6,442 nt of DNA, taken from positions 1 through 6,442 of the forward strand of contig CAMOZF010000108.1 of NCBI GenBank assembly GCA_946630765.1. The letters run 5' to 3'. How positions within the stretch are numbered: the stretch's first letter is position 1; the number at the start of each line of letters is the position of its first letter. A program made the translations under genes and the position numbers. Below are positions 740 through 6,442 of this stretch, one piece after another. Below the pieces are notes generated by a model. It ran no database searches. It saw nothing but the letters and a program-made list of their open reading frames with translations, and had not been told where the DNA came from. The stretch is from an uncultured Lachnospiraceae bacterium (GTDB lineage: Bacteria > Bacillota_A > Clostridia > Lachnospirales > Lachnospiraceae).

Positions 740-3700
740 ATGAAGAGTCGTCTGATTCAATTGTCAAAAGGAAATATTGAATACAAGGTGCCGAAGGTGG
801 TTTTTGGCGTTTCCGAGCTTCAGGGAATCCTTCTGCCGGACAGAAAGACACTGTATGAAGTAAATGTGACCTCGGAAAATAACGTTCCGATGCATCTTTT
901 TTTCTATGCGCAGAATCCGCGGATCCGCGTCTCGCAGCCGCTTCAGATCGGAAGATCCGGAAAATTCACCGTCGAGATCAGCACCTACGGGCTTTCCGTC
1001 GGCGACCGGCTGCAGGGCAGGATCGATATCGTCTATAACGGCGGAGAGACCTCCCTTCCTTACCATTTCCTGATGGGTGTTTCCTATCTGGACCAGGCAA
1101 GAAAGAGCTATATGACGCTTCACGAATTCGCCGAGTCCGCAAGACAGAATCCCCGGGAAGCCGCGCAGCTTTTCGCCTGGAGAGATTTTGCCGATATGCC
1201 CTTTATGAACGATCTTCATATGCAGGGGCTGTATCACACCTATATGACCGGCACCGGAGAGGACAACGGCCTCCGGGAGTTCCTGAAGGCGGCGGGAGAG
1301 CCGCTTCCGGAGCGGGAAAGATCCGAGGGCAGCAGACTGGTCCGCAAAAAAGAAAAGGATCCCGCGGCCGGCATCTACATGCGGGATCAGGAGAGAAAGA
1401 TCCGCGTCCAGCGATTAATTGCCCGCTATGAGATTCTCAAGAACCGCGGAAGGAATCCGAAACCGATCGATTTTGATCAGGAATTTGCCGGCCTGATTGC
1501 CGATTATCCGGCCGATACCGACACCTATCTCGCCTACGCCTTCTATCTGACGATGGAGGGGCGCTTTGACGAGGCACGGACGGAGCTTCTGAAGATTCAG
1601 GACGCCGTACAGAAGGACCGGCTTGCGAAAAAGGACCATTACTGCCTGTTTATGTGGCTGGTGTCCGTAATTCAGGGAGATGAGAACCATAAGGCGCAGT
1701 GCCGCGAGCTCACCCACCGCTTCTTCATCGAGGGCGCGCGCTCCGGGCTGATGTTCGATCTCGAGTACCGGCTGAATCCAGAAATCTCGGAGAATCACGA
1801 GAAGGCCGCACCGCTTCTTCTGCAGTACTACACAATCGCGAGCCGCGATCCGATGGTTTTCCTGGAGACCTGCCTTCTGTGGGAAAAGGACACCTCGGCC
1901 GTCTCGGTGCTTACCGAATACGAGCTTCGCTGCACGCTTTTCGGCCTCAGAAACAACCTGATCTCCGAAAAGACGCTGTTCCGCGTGCTTTCACATGAGC
2001 TGAAAAACCCGAAGCTTCTGAATCTCTACATGCTGATTCTGAAGCTTGCCTATAAAAAATACAGAAACCAGGAATTCCTGCAGGCGATCTGCAATGTCTA
2101 TCTGCAGAAGCGCAATGTCGGCCCGCGGTATTTCCGCTGGTACAGGGACGCGGTCAATCTGAACCTTGCGATGCCCGGACTGTACGAGCATTACATGGCG
2201 AGCCTTCCGAAGGATTTCTCGGAGAAGCTTCCGATGAACCTCGTGCTGTATTTCGGCTACGGAAGGGAGAGCAGCAGTGTACCTCTGGATCTTCTGTATT
2301 CCAATATTCTCACCTATTATGCCGATGACGAGAAGGTCATGGACATTTACCAGGAGAAGATCGACGCCTATGCCGACCGGAAGCTTCGCTCGGAGGAGTA
2401 TTCCGAAAGCAGCATTCCCGTTCTGCAGAGTGTTCTGAGAAAGGACCACCTGAATGCCGAAAACGCACAGGGCGTCATGAGTCTTCTGCGGCTTCAGAAG
2501 ATTGAAACCGGTCTTCAGGGAATCCGGCGGGTTGTGATCCACTATCCGCAGCTTCGCCAGGAGGTTTCCTATGCGATCAACGAAGGAAGCGCGCTCGCGC
2601 CGGTCTATTCGAATCAGGCGATCATTGCCTTTGAGGACCGCACAGGCAGCAGGCATTATGATCCGGAATGCAGGATTTCGCCGGTTTTCGAGGATCCCGA
2701 GCTGATCTCAGAATGTGCCTCGCTTCTTCCGGACCGGCTGCTTCTTCAGCTTCGGGAAGCGGATGAGATCCGCCCCGAAACCCTGCGGGAAAAGGACCTG
2801 TTCCTTGTCACCTCGCTGATCAAAAACCGGAAAATCGACGCCTTCTACAGGGCAAAGCTCTATGAAGCGCTGACTGAGCTTTCGATGGGCCCCGGCATGC
2901 AGCATGTGAACTGCTGCGAATTCCTTCTGGAGGCGGATTACCGGTCGCTTCGGCCCGATTACAGGAAAAAGCTTCTTCAGGCGCTGATCGACCGCGGATA
3001 TTACGAGGAAGCCTTTACCCGGATCATCGACAACGGCTATGAGCATCTGGATGACGATCATCTGCAGCTGGTCACTGAAGAAATGATGGATGTGCCGCTT
3101 TTCAGGGGCAATCCCGCGGTGACCGCCATCTGCTGGCAGCTTTTCCGAAACCGGCATGCCGGAACGAAGATCTACGACGAGCTGTCCTCGTATTTCGAAG
3201 GCAGTACGCGCGACATGCTGCAGCTTCTTCGAAAGCTCCGGCAGAAGCATCAGCCCACAAAGGACCTTGTCGTCAAGACCTTTACCAAGTGCATGTATGT
3301 GGACAACAACCGGGACCTTGACGCGCTTTACGACTGGTATATGGCCGAAAACAGTCAGGAACCGCTTCTGGAATCCGCGTATCTCGTGCTCCGCTCGCAC
3401 ATGTATTTCATGGGAGAACGGAATCTGACGGACGCGGCGGTGGACGGCCTGAAGAAGAAGGTCCACAACCTCCCGAAGGTCGCCATGCTCGCGCTTCTTA
3501 AGTGGTTTGCCGAGGAAAGCAGCCTGATGAGCGATCAGGACCGCGCGCTTGCCGAGGAGCTGACGAAGGCGGCAGCCAGCGAAAACATTGTTCTTTCCTG
3601 CTTTTCGAAGCTGGAGAAGAAGATTAAGATGCCTGTGGAGCTGGAAGGCCGGGTCTATGTGGAATACCGGGATCCCGAGGCGATGGACGTCGCCGTGATC

Positions 3701-4027
3701 GGTCAGATATTCCCGGGAAGACATTATTTCCACCGGATGCTTCACCGGATCTACCCGGGCGTATTTGTGCGTTCATTTATCCTTTACAAAAGGGAGTGGA
3801 TCCAGTATTATTATTCCGTGCATCAGAAGGATGGAAGCTCTGTGGAGCGCGAGGGAGACGTCGTGGCGCAGGAAAGTGACCCCGGTCACAGAAACAGCCG
3901 CTACAGCGACGTCGCGCGGCTCGAGCAGAAGATCCGGAAAAATGACACGCGGGAGACGGCGGAGCTTCTTCGGGCACAGCTTCTGAAGGAAGCGATGATA
4001 GAGAATATTTTTTCGGACAAAGAGTAG
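740..4027 (+). CDS. Giant helical-repeat protein with beta-rich ends, DUF5717-like, function unknown
   Basis: The product has 1095 residues, no signal peptide and no membrane segment, so it is probably cytoplasmic. Residues 1 to about 112 alternate short hydrophobic strands (for example YEVNVTSENNVPMHLFFYA and GRIDIVYNG) in an Ig-like beta-sandwich pattern. A charged linker at about 185-215 (PERERSEG, RKKEKD) follows. From about 215 to 960 the protein is a long run of amphipathic helices; some are TPR-like, such as DTYLAYAFYLTMEGRFDEA near 258 and RGYYEEAFTRIIDNGYEHL near 753. A second beta-rich domain lies at about 968-1045 (VYVEYRDPEAMDVAVIGQIF, FVRSFILYKREWIQYYYSV), and a charged helix closes the protein (about 1060-1090). 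No catalytic motif is visible. The overall form is that of a scaffold. Size, order and the downstream partner fit the DUF5717 family that I recall from Lachnospiraceae, where it sits next to DUF5716. The start is backed by GGAAGGA at 728-734. The frame is intact throughout, with no frameshift. Confidence 0.88.
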   Translation: MKSRLIQLSKGNIEYKVPKVVFGVSELQGILLPDRKTLYEVNVTSENNVPMHLFFYAQNPRIRVSQPLQIGRSGKFTVEISTYGLSVGDRLQGRIDIVYNGGETSLPYHFLMGVSYLDQARKSYMTLHEFAESARQNPREAAQLFAWRDFADMPFMNDLHMQGLYHTYMTGTGEDNGLREFLKAAGEPLPERERSEGSRLVRKKEKDPAAGIYMRDQERKIRVQRLIARYEILKNRGRNPKPIDFDQEFAGLIADYPADTDTYLAYAFYLTMEGRFDEARTELLKIQDAVQKDRLAKKDHYCLFMWLVSVIQGDENHKAQCRELTHRFFIEGARSGLMFDLEYRLNPEISENHEKAAPLLLQYYTIASRDPMVFLETCLLWEKDTSAVSVLTEYELRCTLFGLRNNLISEKTLFRVLSHELKNPKLLNLYMLILKLAYKKYRNQEFLQAICNVYLQKRNVGPRYFRWYRDAVNLNLAMPGLYEHYMASLPKDFSEKLPMNLVLYFGYGRESSSVPLDLLYSNILTYYADDEKVMDIYQEKIDAYADRKLRSEEYSESSIPVLQSVLRKDHLNAENAQGVMSLLRLQKIETGLQGIRRVVIHYPQLRQEVSYAINEGSALAPVYSNQAIIAFEDRTGSRHYDPECRISPVFEDPELISECASLLPDRLLLQLREADEIRPETLREKDLFLVTSLIKNRKIDAFYRAKLYEALTELSMGPGMQHVNCCEFLLEADYRSLRPDYRKKLLQALIDRGYYEEAFTRIIDNGYEHLDDDHLQLVTEEMMDVPLFRGNPAVTAICWQLFRNRHAGTKIYDELSSYFEGSTRDMLQLLRKLRQKHQPTKDLVVKTFTKCMYVDNNRDLDALYDWYMAENSQEPLLESAYLVLRSHMYFMGERNLTDAAVDGLKKKVHNLPKVAMLALLKWFAEESSLMSDQDRALAEELTKAAASENIVLSCFSKLEKKIKMPVELEGRVYVEYRDPEAMDVAVIGQIFPGRHYFHRMLHRIYPGVFVRSFILYKREWIQYYYSVHQKDGSSVEREGDVVAQESDPGHRNSRYSDVARLEQKIRKNDTRETAELLRAQLLKEAMIENIFSDKE

Positions 4028-4033
4028 AAGAGG
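4028..4033 (+). promoter_or_regulatory. Ribosome binding site that fixes a GTG start
   Basis: AAGAGG lies directly after the TAG stop of the giant gene (4025-4027) and six bases before the GTG at 4040. No in-frame ATG lies near by, and the Hsp70-like first strand (residues 5-10) begins just after this GTG, so both the signal and the homology select it. The closeness of stop and start suggests that translation of the two genes is coupled. Confidence 0.7.
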
Positions 4034-4039
4034 CGGATT

Positions 4040-5320
4040 GTGGAAGACGGACTGATTATCGGTTTTGATCTTTGCAAGGATTTCTGCAGGATCAGTTATT
4101 TTGTAAGCGGCGACAAGGAACCCGCCGATCTTGTGTTTTCAGAAGAAGAAAATCCCTATGTCGTTCAGAATTCCATCTGTAAGAAAAAGGGGGAGGACAG
4201 CTGGCTGATCGGCCAGGAAGCCTACGAAACCGCGCTTCTTGGCGGCGGCAGCATCGTCGACAAGCTGCTGCGGCTTGTCGCGCGCTCCGGCTATGCGACC
4301 TTTGAAGGCGTGCAGTACTCCGCGGAAGATCTTCTGCAGCATTTCCTTCAGGAAACACTGAATGTCCTTTTTAAAGAGAAGAAAACGACGAAGGTTCTCG
4401 GCATCATGTATTCGGTGCAGGAGCTGAATACGACTGTGCTGGATACCGTGATCCGCTGTACGAGAAAGCTTGGCATCGAAAGAGAACGGATCCACATCAT
4501 CAGCCATACCGAGAGCTGGCTTTACTATGTGCTGAGCCAGAAAAGGGAGCTGTGGTCCAATATTTCCGTGCTTTACGACCTTTCCGGCGACGGCCTGAAC
4601 TATTATGAGATGGAGGTGCTGCGCGGAATGCAGCCCAATGTTGCCCAGGCCAGAAGGACCTTCCTGGAGGAGGGCTTCTCGCTGGAGATTCTGGACAGCG
4701 CTTCGGGTCGGAAGATGGCCGACAACATCATGTCGAACTGCGTCGACCGCATGCTCAAGAAAAAGCTGATTTCGAGCGCCTATCTTTCCGGCGTCGGCAT
4801 GGATTCCTGCCAGAAGTGGGGCGAGAACTTCCTTCGCGTTCTCTGCCAGAGAAGAAGAGTTTTCTTTATCGAGAACATTTTTGCAAAGGGCGCGGTATAC
4901 GCGGCCTGTGAATACTTAAGAGAGAGCTCGGTCTACCCCTTCAGCATCATGTGCGAGGGCCGGATCGATGTGGATATCAGCATGGAAATCACCCAGGGGA
5001 ATCTCCAGAAGACCCTGAGCCTCGCATCGGTCGGCAATAACTGGTACGAGACCCGGGAATCCTTCGACCTGATCCCGGATCAGGAGACCTCGGTGCGGAT
5101 GAAGGTCAAACGCCTCGGAGAACGCGTGCCGATCATGATCGACATTCCCTTTACGGATTTCCCGGAACGGCCGCAGAAAACGAGCAGAATCAATGTGGCG
5201 CTGTCGTTTATCTCGGAAAATATCTTTACGGTCACGCTGACCGACCGCGGCTTCGGCGAATTCTTCCCGGGTACGGATAAGTCGGTGCAGAAGACCTTTA
5301 CGATCGGAAACGGAAATTAG
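4040..5320 (+). CDS. Divergent Hsp70/actin-fold protein, DUF5716-like, function unknown
   Basis: This 426-residue cytoplasmic protein follows the Hsp70 plan by eye. GLIIGFDLCKDFCRISYF (4-21) stands where phosphate loop 1 (GIDLGTTNS) would be. NPYVVQNSI (38-46) and WLIGQEAYETA (55-65) follow, then SIVDKLLRLV (71-80), whose Lys75 may match the catalytic lysine of DnaK. KVLGIMYSVQELN to IHIISHTESWLYYVLSQ (118-167) parallels the DnaK stretch ITVPAYF to NEPTAAALAY. VLYDLSGDGLNYYEM (177-191) is phosphate loop 2, AYLSGVGM (247-254) is the adenosine loop and NIFAKGAVYAACEYL (279-293) is the connect-2 helix. Residues 305-426 resemble the substrate-binding beta domain, ending TSRINVALSF..IFTVTLTDRGFGEFF..FTI. 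Conserved Gly/Thr residues of loop 1 are replaced by Cys-Lys-Asp, so ATP hydrolysis is doubtful. Loops 2 and adenosine are about 65 residues apart, against about 140 in DnaK, so subdomain IIB is largely missing, and there is no alpha-helical lid. From memory this matches DUF5716. An actin/MreB-type or exopolyphosphatase-like relative is the alternative. Confidence 0.87.
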   Translation: MEDGLIIGFDLCKDFCRISYFVSGDKEPADLVFSEEENPYVVQNSICKKKGEDSWLIGQEAYETALLGGGSIVDKLLRLVARSGYATFEGVQYSAEDLLQHFLQETLNVLFKEKKTTKVLGIMYSVQELNTTVLDTVIRCTRKLGIERERIHIISHTESWLYYVLSQKRELWSNISVLYDLSGDGLNYYEMEVLRGMQPNVAQARRTFLEEGFSLEILDSASGRKMADNIMSNCVDRMLKKKLISSAYLSGVGMDSCQKWGENFLRVLCQRRRVFFIENIFAKGAVYAACEYLRESSVYPFSIMCEGRIDVDISMEITQGNLQKTLSLASVGNNWYETRESFDLIPDQETSVRMKVKRLGERVPIMIDIPFTDFPERPQKTSRINVALSFISENIFTVTLTDRGFGEFFPGTDKSVQKTFTIGNGN

Positions 5321-5324
5321 GAGG
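5319..5324 (+). promoter_or_regulatory. Consensus ribosome binding site overlapping the upstream stop codon
   Basis: A perfect AGGAGG begins inside the TAG stop of the Hsp70-like gene (5318-5320) and lies nine bases before the ATG at 5334. It is the strongest ribosome binding site in the block, so the TPR-like protein may be made at least as abundantly as its upstream neighbours. The overlap allows translational coupling. Confidence 0.7.
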
Positions 5325-5333
5325 AGACACTTT

Positions 5334-6146
5334 ATGGGACGATACATTCTGTGCGGTAAAGAAGCCGAAGTTCCTTACGAAGTGGATGAACTGGATATCC
5401 GTATTTACACGATCGAGGAACTCTGCTATTATATCTACAATTATCTGCCGCTCATCGGCGACGACTTCATCGATGACCGGCTGCTGCTCTTTATCCGCCA
5501 CGAGCTGGAGCTTCCGGAGATCGCCGACAAGATCGAGCGCTTCTACAGCGCCCGTTCCGAACAGGACGCGACGCTTCTGATGCTGCTGTCGGATGTTGGC
5601 TACTATTCGGATCAGGAGCTTCAGGAGTTCCAGAACCGGCTGGTATACAGGAAACGGAAGAGCAGTCAGGAACGCGTCAAGGGACGCGCGGACAGTCTTC
5701 TGCGGTTGAAGCGCTATCAGAGCGCCGTACGAACCTATAAAACGCTTGCGGGATCGAGTTCGGACAACCGAAATTCCCGGGAATTCTACTATGACGTGCT
5801 GGAATCCCTGGCCAATGCCTACGGAAAGCTCTGCGAATTCGACTATGCGCTGGACTGCCTTTTCGGCATCTACGATCTGAACCATTCGGAGCGGATCCTG
5901 AAAAAGGCCTACGACGTCTGTGTGCTTTCGGGAACGGAGCTTCCGTCCCGGTACTTCTCCAAGGTGCCGGATCAGGTGCTTTCCTCCTGGCAGCAGGACT
6001 ACTGGAACCGGGAGACCATTGAGAAGCAGAAGCTCGATGAAAGCAGCATTATGCAGAGCTTCCTGAAGGATCCCGAAACCGCCAAAATGGAGCTTCAGAA
6101 CTATCTGGACAACAAGAAAAGCGCCTGCCGGGGCATGCTTGAATAA
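5334..6146 (+). CDS. TPR-like helical protein of unknown function
   Basis: The product has 270 residues, without signal peptide or membrane helices. The first 20 residues (MGRYILCGKEAEVPYEVDEL) look like a short beta hairpin, followed by an acidic helical region (about 27-105) rich in aromatic and acidic residues (IEELCYYIYNYLPL, IGDDFIDDRLLLFI). Two TPR-like helical hairpins come next: about 112-143 (KGRADSLLRLKRYQSAVRTY) and about 153-186 (SLANAYGKLCEFDYALDCLF), the second with the expected Leu-Ala-Tyr...Tyr-Ala-Leu spacing. A charged C-terminal helical tail completes it (225-262). No catalytic motif is visible. TPR units usually mediate protein-protein contacts, and the gene sits 13 bases after an Hsp70-like gene, so a role as partner or adaptor of that protein is plausible but unproven. 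I recall similar uncharacterised proteins in Lachnospiraceae beside the same neighbours. It ends 33 bases before valS. Confidence 0.85.
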   Translation: MGRYILCGKEAEVPYEVDELDIRIYTIEELCYYIYNYLPLIGDDFIDDRLLLFIRHELELPEIADKIERFYSARSEQDATLLMLLSDVGYYSDQELQEFQNRLVYRKRKSSQERVKGRADSLLRLKRYQSAVRTYKTLAGSSSDNRNSREFYYDVLESLANAYGKLCEFDYALDCLFGIYDLNHSERILKKAYDVCVLSGTELPSRYFSKVPDQVLSSWQQDYWNRETIEKQKLDESSIMQSFLKDPETAKMELQNYLDNKKSACRGMLE

Positions 6147-6179
6147 AATACCGGCTTTTTGACAGACAGGGGAGTGAAT
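6147..6179 (+). other. Short intergenic gap before valS, without T-box or terminator
   Basis: Only 33 bases separate the TPR-like gene from valS. They hold the valS ribosome binding site AGGGGAG (6168-6174, five bases before the ATG) and a TTGACA string at 6159-6164. No hairpin followed by a T-run is present, and there is no room for the leader and antiterminator of a T-box riboswitch, which often controls valS in Firmicutes. Confidence 0.65.
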
Positions 6180-6442
6180 ATGAAGGAATTATCCAAGACC
6201 TACGATCCGTCGGCGATCGAAAGAAGAATTTACGAAAACTGGGAGAATAAGGGCTATTTCAAGGCTTCTCCGAACAGTAAGAAGAAGCCCTATACGATTG
6301 TGATGCCGCCGCCGAATATCACGGGCCAGCTGCACATGGGCCATGCGATGGACAACACGCTTCAGGACATCCTGATCCGTTACAGAAGAATGCAGGGCTA
6401 TGAAGCACTGTGGCAGCCCGGAACCGACCACGCGTCGATTGC
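6180..6442 (+). CDS. valS: Valine--tRNA ligase, N-terminal fragment
   Basis: This is the 5' end of valS, cut by the right edge of the window; 87 full codons are visible from about 880 in the family. The enzyme charges tRNA-Val with valine using ATP in the cytoplasm and edits misactivated threonine. The start region [20 protein letters not shown] (residues 4-23) is the usual ValRS opening. [13 protein letters not shown] (43-55) contains the class I HIGH signature as HMGH (52-55). [15 protein letters not shown] (74-88) is the characteristic segment that follows in ValRS; IleRS and LeuRS differ here. The KMSKS motif, editing domain and C-terminal coiled coil lie beyond the window. The ATG at 6180 is placed by AGGGGAG five bases upstream. 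The gene probably relies on a transcript that starts upstream, since no own promoter or leader is visible in the gap. Confidence 0.96.

Follow-up and report, generated by a model that had tools for sequence, protein, structure and literature searches.

Our analysis of a 6,442-nucleotide window of DNA from an uncultured Lachnospiraceae bacterium (contig CAMOZF010000108.1, assembly GCA_946630765.1) suggests an Hsp70-type ancestry for a unit of three genes, which encode a giant DUF5717 protein, a DUF5716 protein and a small TPR-type protein. We give about an even chance to the reading that these genes have been retained as the non-ATPase core of a machine of the Hsp70 type dedicated to handling proteins. 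The unit looks like such a core because a fuller version, in which three intact Hsp70s and a GrpE domain are present, occurs in relatives. A preliminary description, made from the letters of the window (the whole stretch analysed), had reported three close genes and guessed at a chaperone-like or scaffold complex. The open reading frames (ORFs) are indeed co-directional with gaps of 12 and 13 bases, and since strong Pfam matches coincide with an order that is kept in relatives, the arrangement is not a chance one. Each of the three starts is preceded by a purine-rich stretch. The unit is laid out as follows.

740..4027, forward strand: DUF5717 protein, 1095 amino acids, from ORF, Pfam and structure model; the proposed scaffold
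4028..4039, forward strand: 12-base-pair gap ahead of DUF5716, with bases resembling a ribosome-binding site
4040..5320, forward strand: DUF5716 protein, 426 amino acids, GTG start, from ORF, Pfam and fold; the putative pseudo-Hsp70
5321..5333, forward strand: 13-base-pair gap ahead of the TPR gene, containing AGGAGG
5334..6146, forward strand: small TPR-type protein, 270 amino acids, from ORF, whose N-terminal domain (about residues 1-110) is conserved

The chaperone part of the guess gains its support from ancestry, because sister lineages (Defluviitalea and others) hold an operon with three catalytically intact Hsp70s and a GrpE-domain protein, in the order DUF5717, Hsp70, GrpE-domain protein, DUF5716-like, Hsp70, Hsp70-VWA, TPR. 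In a draw of 147 genomes from the order, DUF5716 was matched in 66 (61 over the cut-off), 19 of them with a strong single match and 47 with weaker matches, mostly two, the frames being some 520 and 550 residues long; this split was made by hand, and one genome with three matches and 197 bits (G539) was placed with the weak, tandem kind. Among 20 loci fetched from 18 genomes of the weak type, the full order was complete in 14, the other six being partial or cut by the fetched stretch, and in two genomes (G663 and G597) parts of the operon set were spread over two contigs. At one of these loci, L123, the first Hsp70 (Hsp70A) matched the Pfam HSP70 family PF00012 with an E-value of 6.2e-78, the second (Hsp70B) at 1.6e-63, and the Hsp70 fused to a VWA domain (L123:5787-7862; 8.1e-92) had its catalytic residues intact. 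The GrpE protein of this locus has 630 residues with the GrpE domain at its end (7.1e-11), and the DUF5716-like protein matched both PF18980 (2.2e-33) and PF00012 (1.8e-14). Hsp70A, Hsp70B and Hsp70-VWA keep their catalytic residues across the sister operons.

The region of about 450 residues ahead of the GrpE domain (in L123:11127-13019 and L137:10870-12804) follows the fuller operon through the order. It was matched in 47 of the 147 genomes. The 47 genomes with weak DUF5716 matches supply 44 of these and the 19 with strong ones none; the last three come from elsewhere in the draw. Two weak-DUF5716 genomes lacking it, G539 (L127) and G579 (L160), hold a shorter GrpE-type frame, and no GrpE-type frame was found at the G546 locus. 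That locus (L159:5816-10915) carries DUF5717, in two frames, and a DUF5716-like gene, with no recognised Hsp70A, GrpE, Hsp70B, VWA or TPR nearby. It is possibly a second, separate reduction. Of the three other genomes with the GrpE N-terminal region, two (G573 and G591) possess the fuller operon, in which the protein at the DUF5716 position is more divergent still. In the fuller operon of G590 (L167:6114-10904), the GrpE and DUF5716-like genes are separated by three additional frames, each about 490-526 residues long. Weak matches in G521, G352 and G662, the last to the GrpE N-terminal region, were taken as spurious, as the fetched regions held no operon. In a draw of 293 genomes from the class, the same 13 passed the cut-off for DUF5716 and DUF5717_N, all 13 being also in the order draw, and the GrpE N-terminal region gave one weak match; at the sensitivity of these searches, the system therefore appears to be confined to the order. 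Beyond the class, neither PF18980 nor PF18984 was matched in any of the 14 named control genomes searched.

Since neither DUF5716 nor DUF5717 had a credible relative in sequence searches of solved structures, where the best E values were 0.18 to 1.3, a comparison of folds was needed. The predicted structure of the DUF5716 protein (PF18980 at 8.3e-87, above the gathering score) has the Hsp70 nucleotide-binding-domain fold followed by a substrate-binding beta domain. Residues 4-423 of the model could be superposed on DnaK (7kru_A), with 388 residues aligned at 6.2 Å, and the profile alignment with Hsp70s extends through the beta domain, where R383, F390, D402, G404, F405 and G406 are invariant in 25 sequences. 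No match of the window protein to PF00012 was obtained at E values up to 1. Residues were compared by the E. coli DnaK numbering of Asp8, Lys70, Glu171, Asp194, Thr199 and Asp201: the window protein keeps Asp10 (Asp8) and Asp180 (Asp194), and has Leu77 for Lys70, His156 for Glu171, Gly185 for Thr199 and Asn187 for Asp201. The same trend runs through 81 loci, made up of the window and the best 80 of 108 confirmed loci, a sample that leans to the window's own kin; the second Asp is lost in 71 of the 81, and the GGGT loop is lost. In the DUF5716-like proteins of the sister operons, Lys70 is present in 0 of the 16 shown (of 18), and Asp201 is replaced by Arg in 16 of 18.

The distance between the phosphate-2 and adenosine motifs is 71-72 residues in DUF5716 versus 143 in DnaK, and the roughly 70 residues missing probably correspond to subdomain IIB. 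A median of 171 residues follows the adenosine motif, versus 311 in DnaK, and the helical lid is gone. The protein therefore shares with Hsp70/DnaK the nucleotide-binding-domain fold, the substrate-binding beta domain and the phosphate-1 Asp, but differs in lacking the catalytic Lys and Glu, the GGGT loop, the lid and, mostly, the second Asp. It also differs in that separate DnaK-type genes exist in all eight genomes tested, seven near full length and one a fragment. Judged from the alignments and the predicted fold, DUF5716 appears to be a pseudo-Hsp70 that has kept the Hsp70 fold and the substrate-binding beta domain and lost the ATPase residues. The preliminary label of an Hsp70-like protein is thus right for the fold, but the picture of a working Hsp70 is not supported, because the window protein is without these residues.

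The DUF5717 protein matched PF18984 (3.7e-126) and PF18983 (9.9e-47), both above the gathering score. Its AlphaFold2 model (pLDDT 86, pTM 0.58) bears out the helical-repeat protein with beta-rich ends that had been proposed, and adds a beta domain midway along the chain. An N-terminal MSP/ASH/PapD-like Ig-fold (residues ~17-115), with structural matches that include axonemal and centrosomal proteins, is followed in the prediction by a first helical solenoid (~127-580), the middle beta domain (~585-648), a second solenoid (~653-958), a C-terminal beta domain (~971-1038) and end helices. Foldseek matches of the solenoids to Ski3, Ctr9, IFT-A and Naa15, with TM scores below 0.2, were set aside as generic solenoid likeness.

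The TPR-like character ascribed to the third protein is weak in the window and clear in its sister-operon homolog. The window protein reaches TPR_1 at E 0.0036 with 17.5 bits, below the Pfam cut-off of 27.8, and the homolog, to which it aligns over the common N-terminal domain, reaches TPR_19 at 2.7e-20, well past the cut-off. The classical contact between an Hsp70 tail and a TPR clamp is not indicated, as the window DUF5716 sequence has no EEVD-like tail.

The three-gene unit is near-universal in the family and usually single-copy. Homologs are not usually found apart: DUF5716 and the TPR gene are present at 81 of the 81 loci and DUF5717 at 80, in the same order and strand throughout, and the single locus without DUF5717 (L012) is explained by its position, as it runs off the contig start with DUF5716 beginning at base 217. 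DUF5717 is split into two frames at two loci (L016 and L053). The closest relatives of the window come from Lachnospiraceae or Clostridiales metagenome genomes, several titled as rumen. In a draw of 250 genomes from the family of Hungatella hathewayi (G001, from locus L062), which was taken as Lachnospiraceae, DUF5716 was matched in 247, DUF5717_N in 248 and the N-terminal domain of the TPR protein in 247. All three are missing in G030 and G082, and in G088 DUF5717 stands at a contig end without matches to the other two. There is one DUF5716 match per genome, with the exception of two in G212, G244 and G252; some genomes have two or three DUF5717_N stretches, G088 for instance two, in adjacent frames of equal length. 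By neighbour counts that cover 150 rows each of the 247, 248 and 247 positive genomes, DUF5716 and DUF5717 are adjacent in 103 of 105 pairs and DUF5716 and the TPR gene in 110 of 111, and one of the three non-adjacent cases (G015) is broken at contig ends. In G246 (L180:6081-8258), DUF5716 and the TPR protein are fused by a short linker into one 725-residue frame, which supports contact between the two.

Together with the fuller operon, these data allow a model to be put forward. In the fuller version, the DUF5717 solenoid would serve as a platform: the active Hsp70s, with the GrpE-domain protein to recharge them, would work on clients, and the pseudo-Hsp70 and the TPR protein would hold or present these. 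The lineage of the window would have lost the ATP-driven arms, with the scaffold, the pseudo-Hsp70 and the TPR protein remaining as a client-holding or assembly platform that may hand clients to the ordinary DnaK or work without ATP. Loss, rather than gain, of Hsp70s is the likeliest direction, judging from synteny and from a quick tree, rooted at the midpoint and subject to long-branch warnings; in this tree, the DUF5716-like protein of G539, whose locus has the fuller order with valS two genes on, groups with the Lachnospiraceae ones on a long branch. More tentatively, and with the odds somewhat against it, we propose the full history: a giant MSP/ASH-domain solenoid machine ancestrally had four Hsp70-fold subunits (three active and one pseudo), a GrpE-domain factor dedicated to it and a VWA arm. 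In the Lachnospiraceae, on this proposal, it shrank to a core that binds clients but is no ATPase, and this core, with its own dedicated client, went on to become nearly universal in the cell biology of the family.

Several points weigh against a retained machine core. With the ATPase residues lost, ancestry is no proof of present chaperone activity, and since Asp8 is kept at 81 of the 81 DUF5716 loci and Asp194 at 71, the protein may still bind nucleotide. The direction of loss leans on the synteny and the quick tree with its long-branch warnings, and there the remaining DUF5716-like proteins of the sister lineages form two groups, not one. The TPR repeats are weak in the window protein, and the TPR gene is not always linked, as the G546 locus has none nearby. 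DUF5717 in G038 and the TPR gene in G076 look like genuine separations from the unit. Finally, no J-domain protein (DnaJ Pfam) was found among the window or L123 operon proteins scanned, and elsewhere none was searched for.

An Hsp70 fold could also have been co-opted structurally, so that the unit would form a cytosolic scaffold or cytoskeleton-like assembly, concerned with cell shape, division or envelope organisation, and have no folding role. The lost ATPase residues fit this explanation, as do the scaffold-type solenoid, the MSP/ASH/PapD-like domain with its axonemal and centrosomal likenesses, and the fact that no client or J-protein was recognised among the proteins scanned. We nevertheless regard it as unlikely, since the substrate-binding beta domain is kept with its invariant residues, no transmembrane stretch was predicted by hydropathy in the DUF5717, DUF5716 or TPR protein, and the fuller operon combines three catalytically intact Hsp70s with a GrpE domain.

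Less probable again is a shared operon that serves joint expression of products that form no complex. The apparent separation of one gene in each of two genomes (G038 and G076) would agree with it, but the fixed order in two forms of the operon, the absence of the genes from the same genomes and the natural fusion all speak against it.

Comparably improbable is a role at the ribosome or in translation, in the manner of the eukaryotic ribosome-associated complex; DUF5716 would then correspond to Ssz1, which is a non-canonical Hsp70 according to the passage cited (PMC7083937). Ssz1 does give the top structural Z for DUF5716, but differences in Z below 1 are ties, and this is such a tie. Moreover, the bacterial unit has a giant solenoid as its neighbour and no Zuotin-like J-domain partner among the window and L123 operon proteins scanned, and the linkage to valS may only reflect inherited gene order. 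The other neighbours vary.

Membership in the GAP1/GTPase-centred conflict or defence systems, which also use Hsp70, GrpE, TPR and VWA parts, is very improbable and was rejected on distribution and content: the GAP1-N2 neighbourhoods of firmicutes and actinobacteria, as far as the published account cited describes them (PMC7159879), bring HSP70, GrpE and TPR genes together, in some cases with VWA domains, and are the nearest described thing to the fuller operon, and the sister Hsp70B, Hsp70-VWA and TPR protein gave weak matches to PADLOC models, but our unit is near-universal in its family rather than patchy, the fuller operon has four Hsp70-fold genes, Pfam scans of the window and L123 proteins found no GTPase, tubulin, FNIII or GAP1 domain, PADLOC gave nothing for the DUF5716 and TPR proteins and, for DUF5717, a single weak match of 19 residues (E 0.0007), and a viral-contig scan (one scan, with a single-sequence query) confirmed no relative.

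A retained Hsp70-type core would be a new description. The DUF families are known already, as Pfam holds exactly the window families (PF18980, PF18983 and PF18984) under names for families of unknown function, and the Pfam descriptions of DUF5716 and DUF5717 give neither an Hsp70 ancestry nor the operon. A full-text literature search found no description of DUF5716, for which the one paper that came up has an unrelated title, nor of DUF5717, their Pfam accessions or the operon, in agreement with the initial impression that these families have no described function together. The Hsp70-type operon with a reduced core lacking catalytic residues is thus previously undescribed in the literature searched. 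If the proposed reading is true, an Hsp70 system is able to lose its engines and yet keep its client-binding scaffold, and bacteria would have, in this unit, a parallel to Ssz1 and other non-canonical Hsp70s. Of the genomes sampled from this family, a major one of gut and rumen, about 99 percent have the unit (DUF5716 in 247 of 250), and the ancestry seen in the sister operon makes its function directly testable through a natural series, from the fuller Hsp70/GrpE machine to the core without catalytic residues.

Outside the unit, the window holds three further features.

1-285: topoisomerase III-like gene, end only
307-708: gene for a small, strongly hydrophobic protein, between the topoisomerase III-like gene and DUF5717
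6180..6442, forward strand: valS (valine-tRNA ligase), 5' part only, outside the unit though a common neighbour

No function could be gained from the variable neighbours of the unit. Besides valS, which is present at 39 of the 81 loci, they are inconsistent (MgsA-type AAA, DUF4364, TPR protein, GHMP kinase, MATE, shikimate kinase and YgbB), and the pair of a topB-like gene with a membrane protein of the 307-708 type occurs at nine, including the window. The small hydrophobic protein itself has a weak resemblance to DUF6142, under the cut-off. For valS, the ATG at 6180, which lies 33 base pairs past the TPR stop and has GGGGAG just 5' of it, fits better as a start than the TTG at 6159 of the mechanical ORF.
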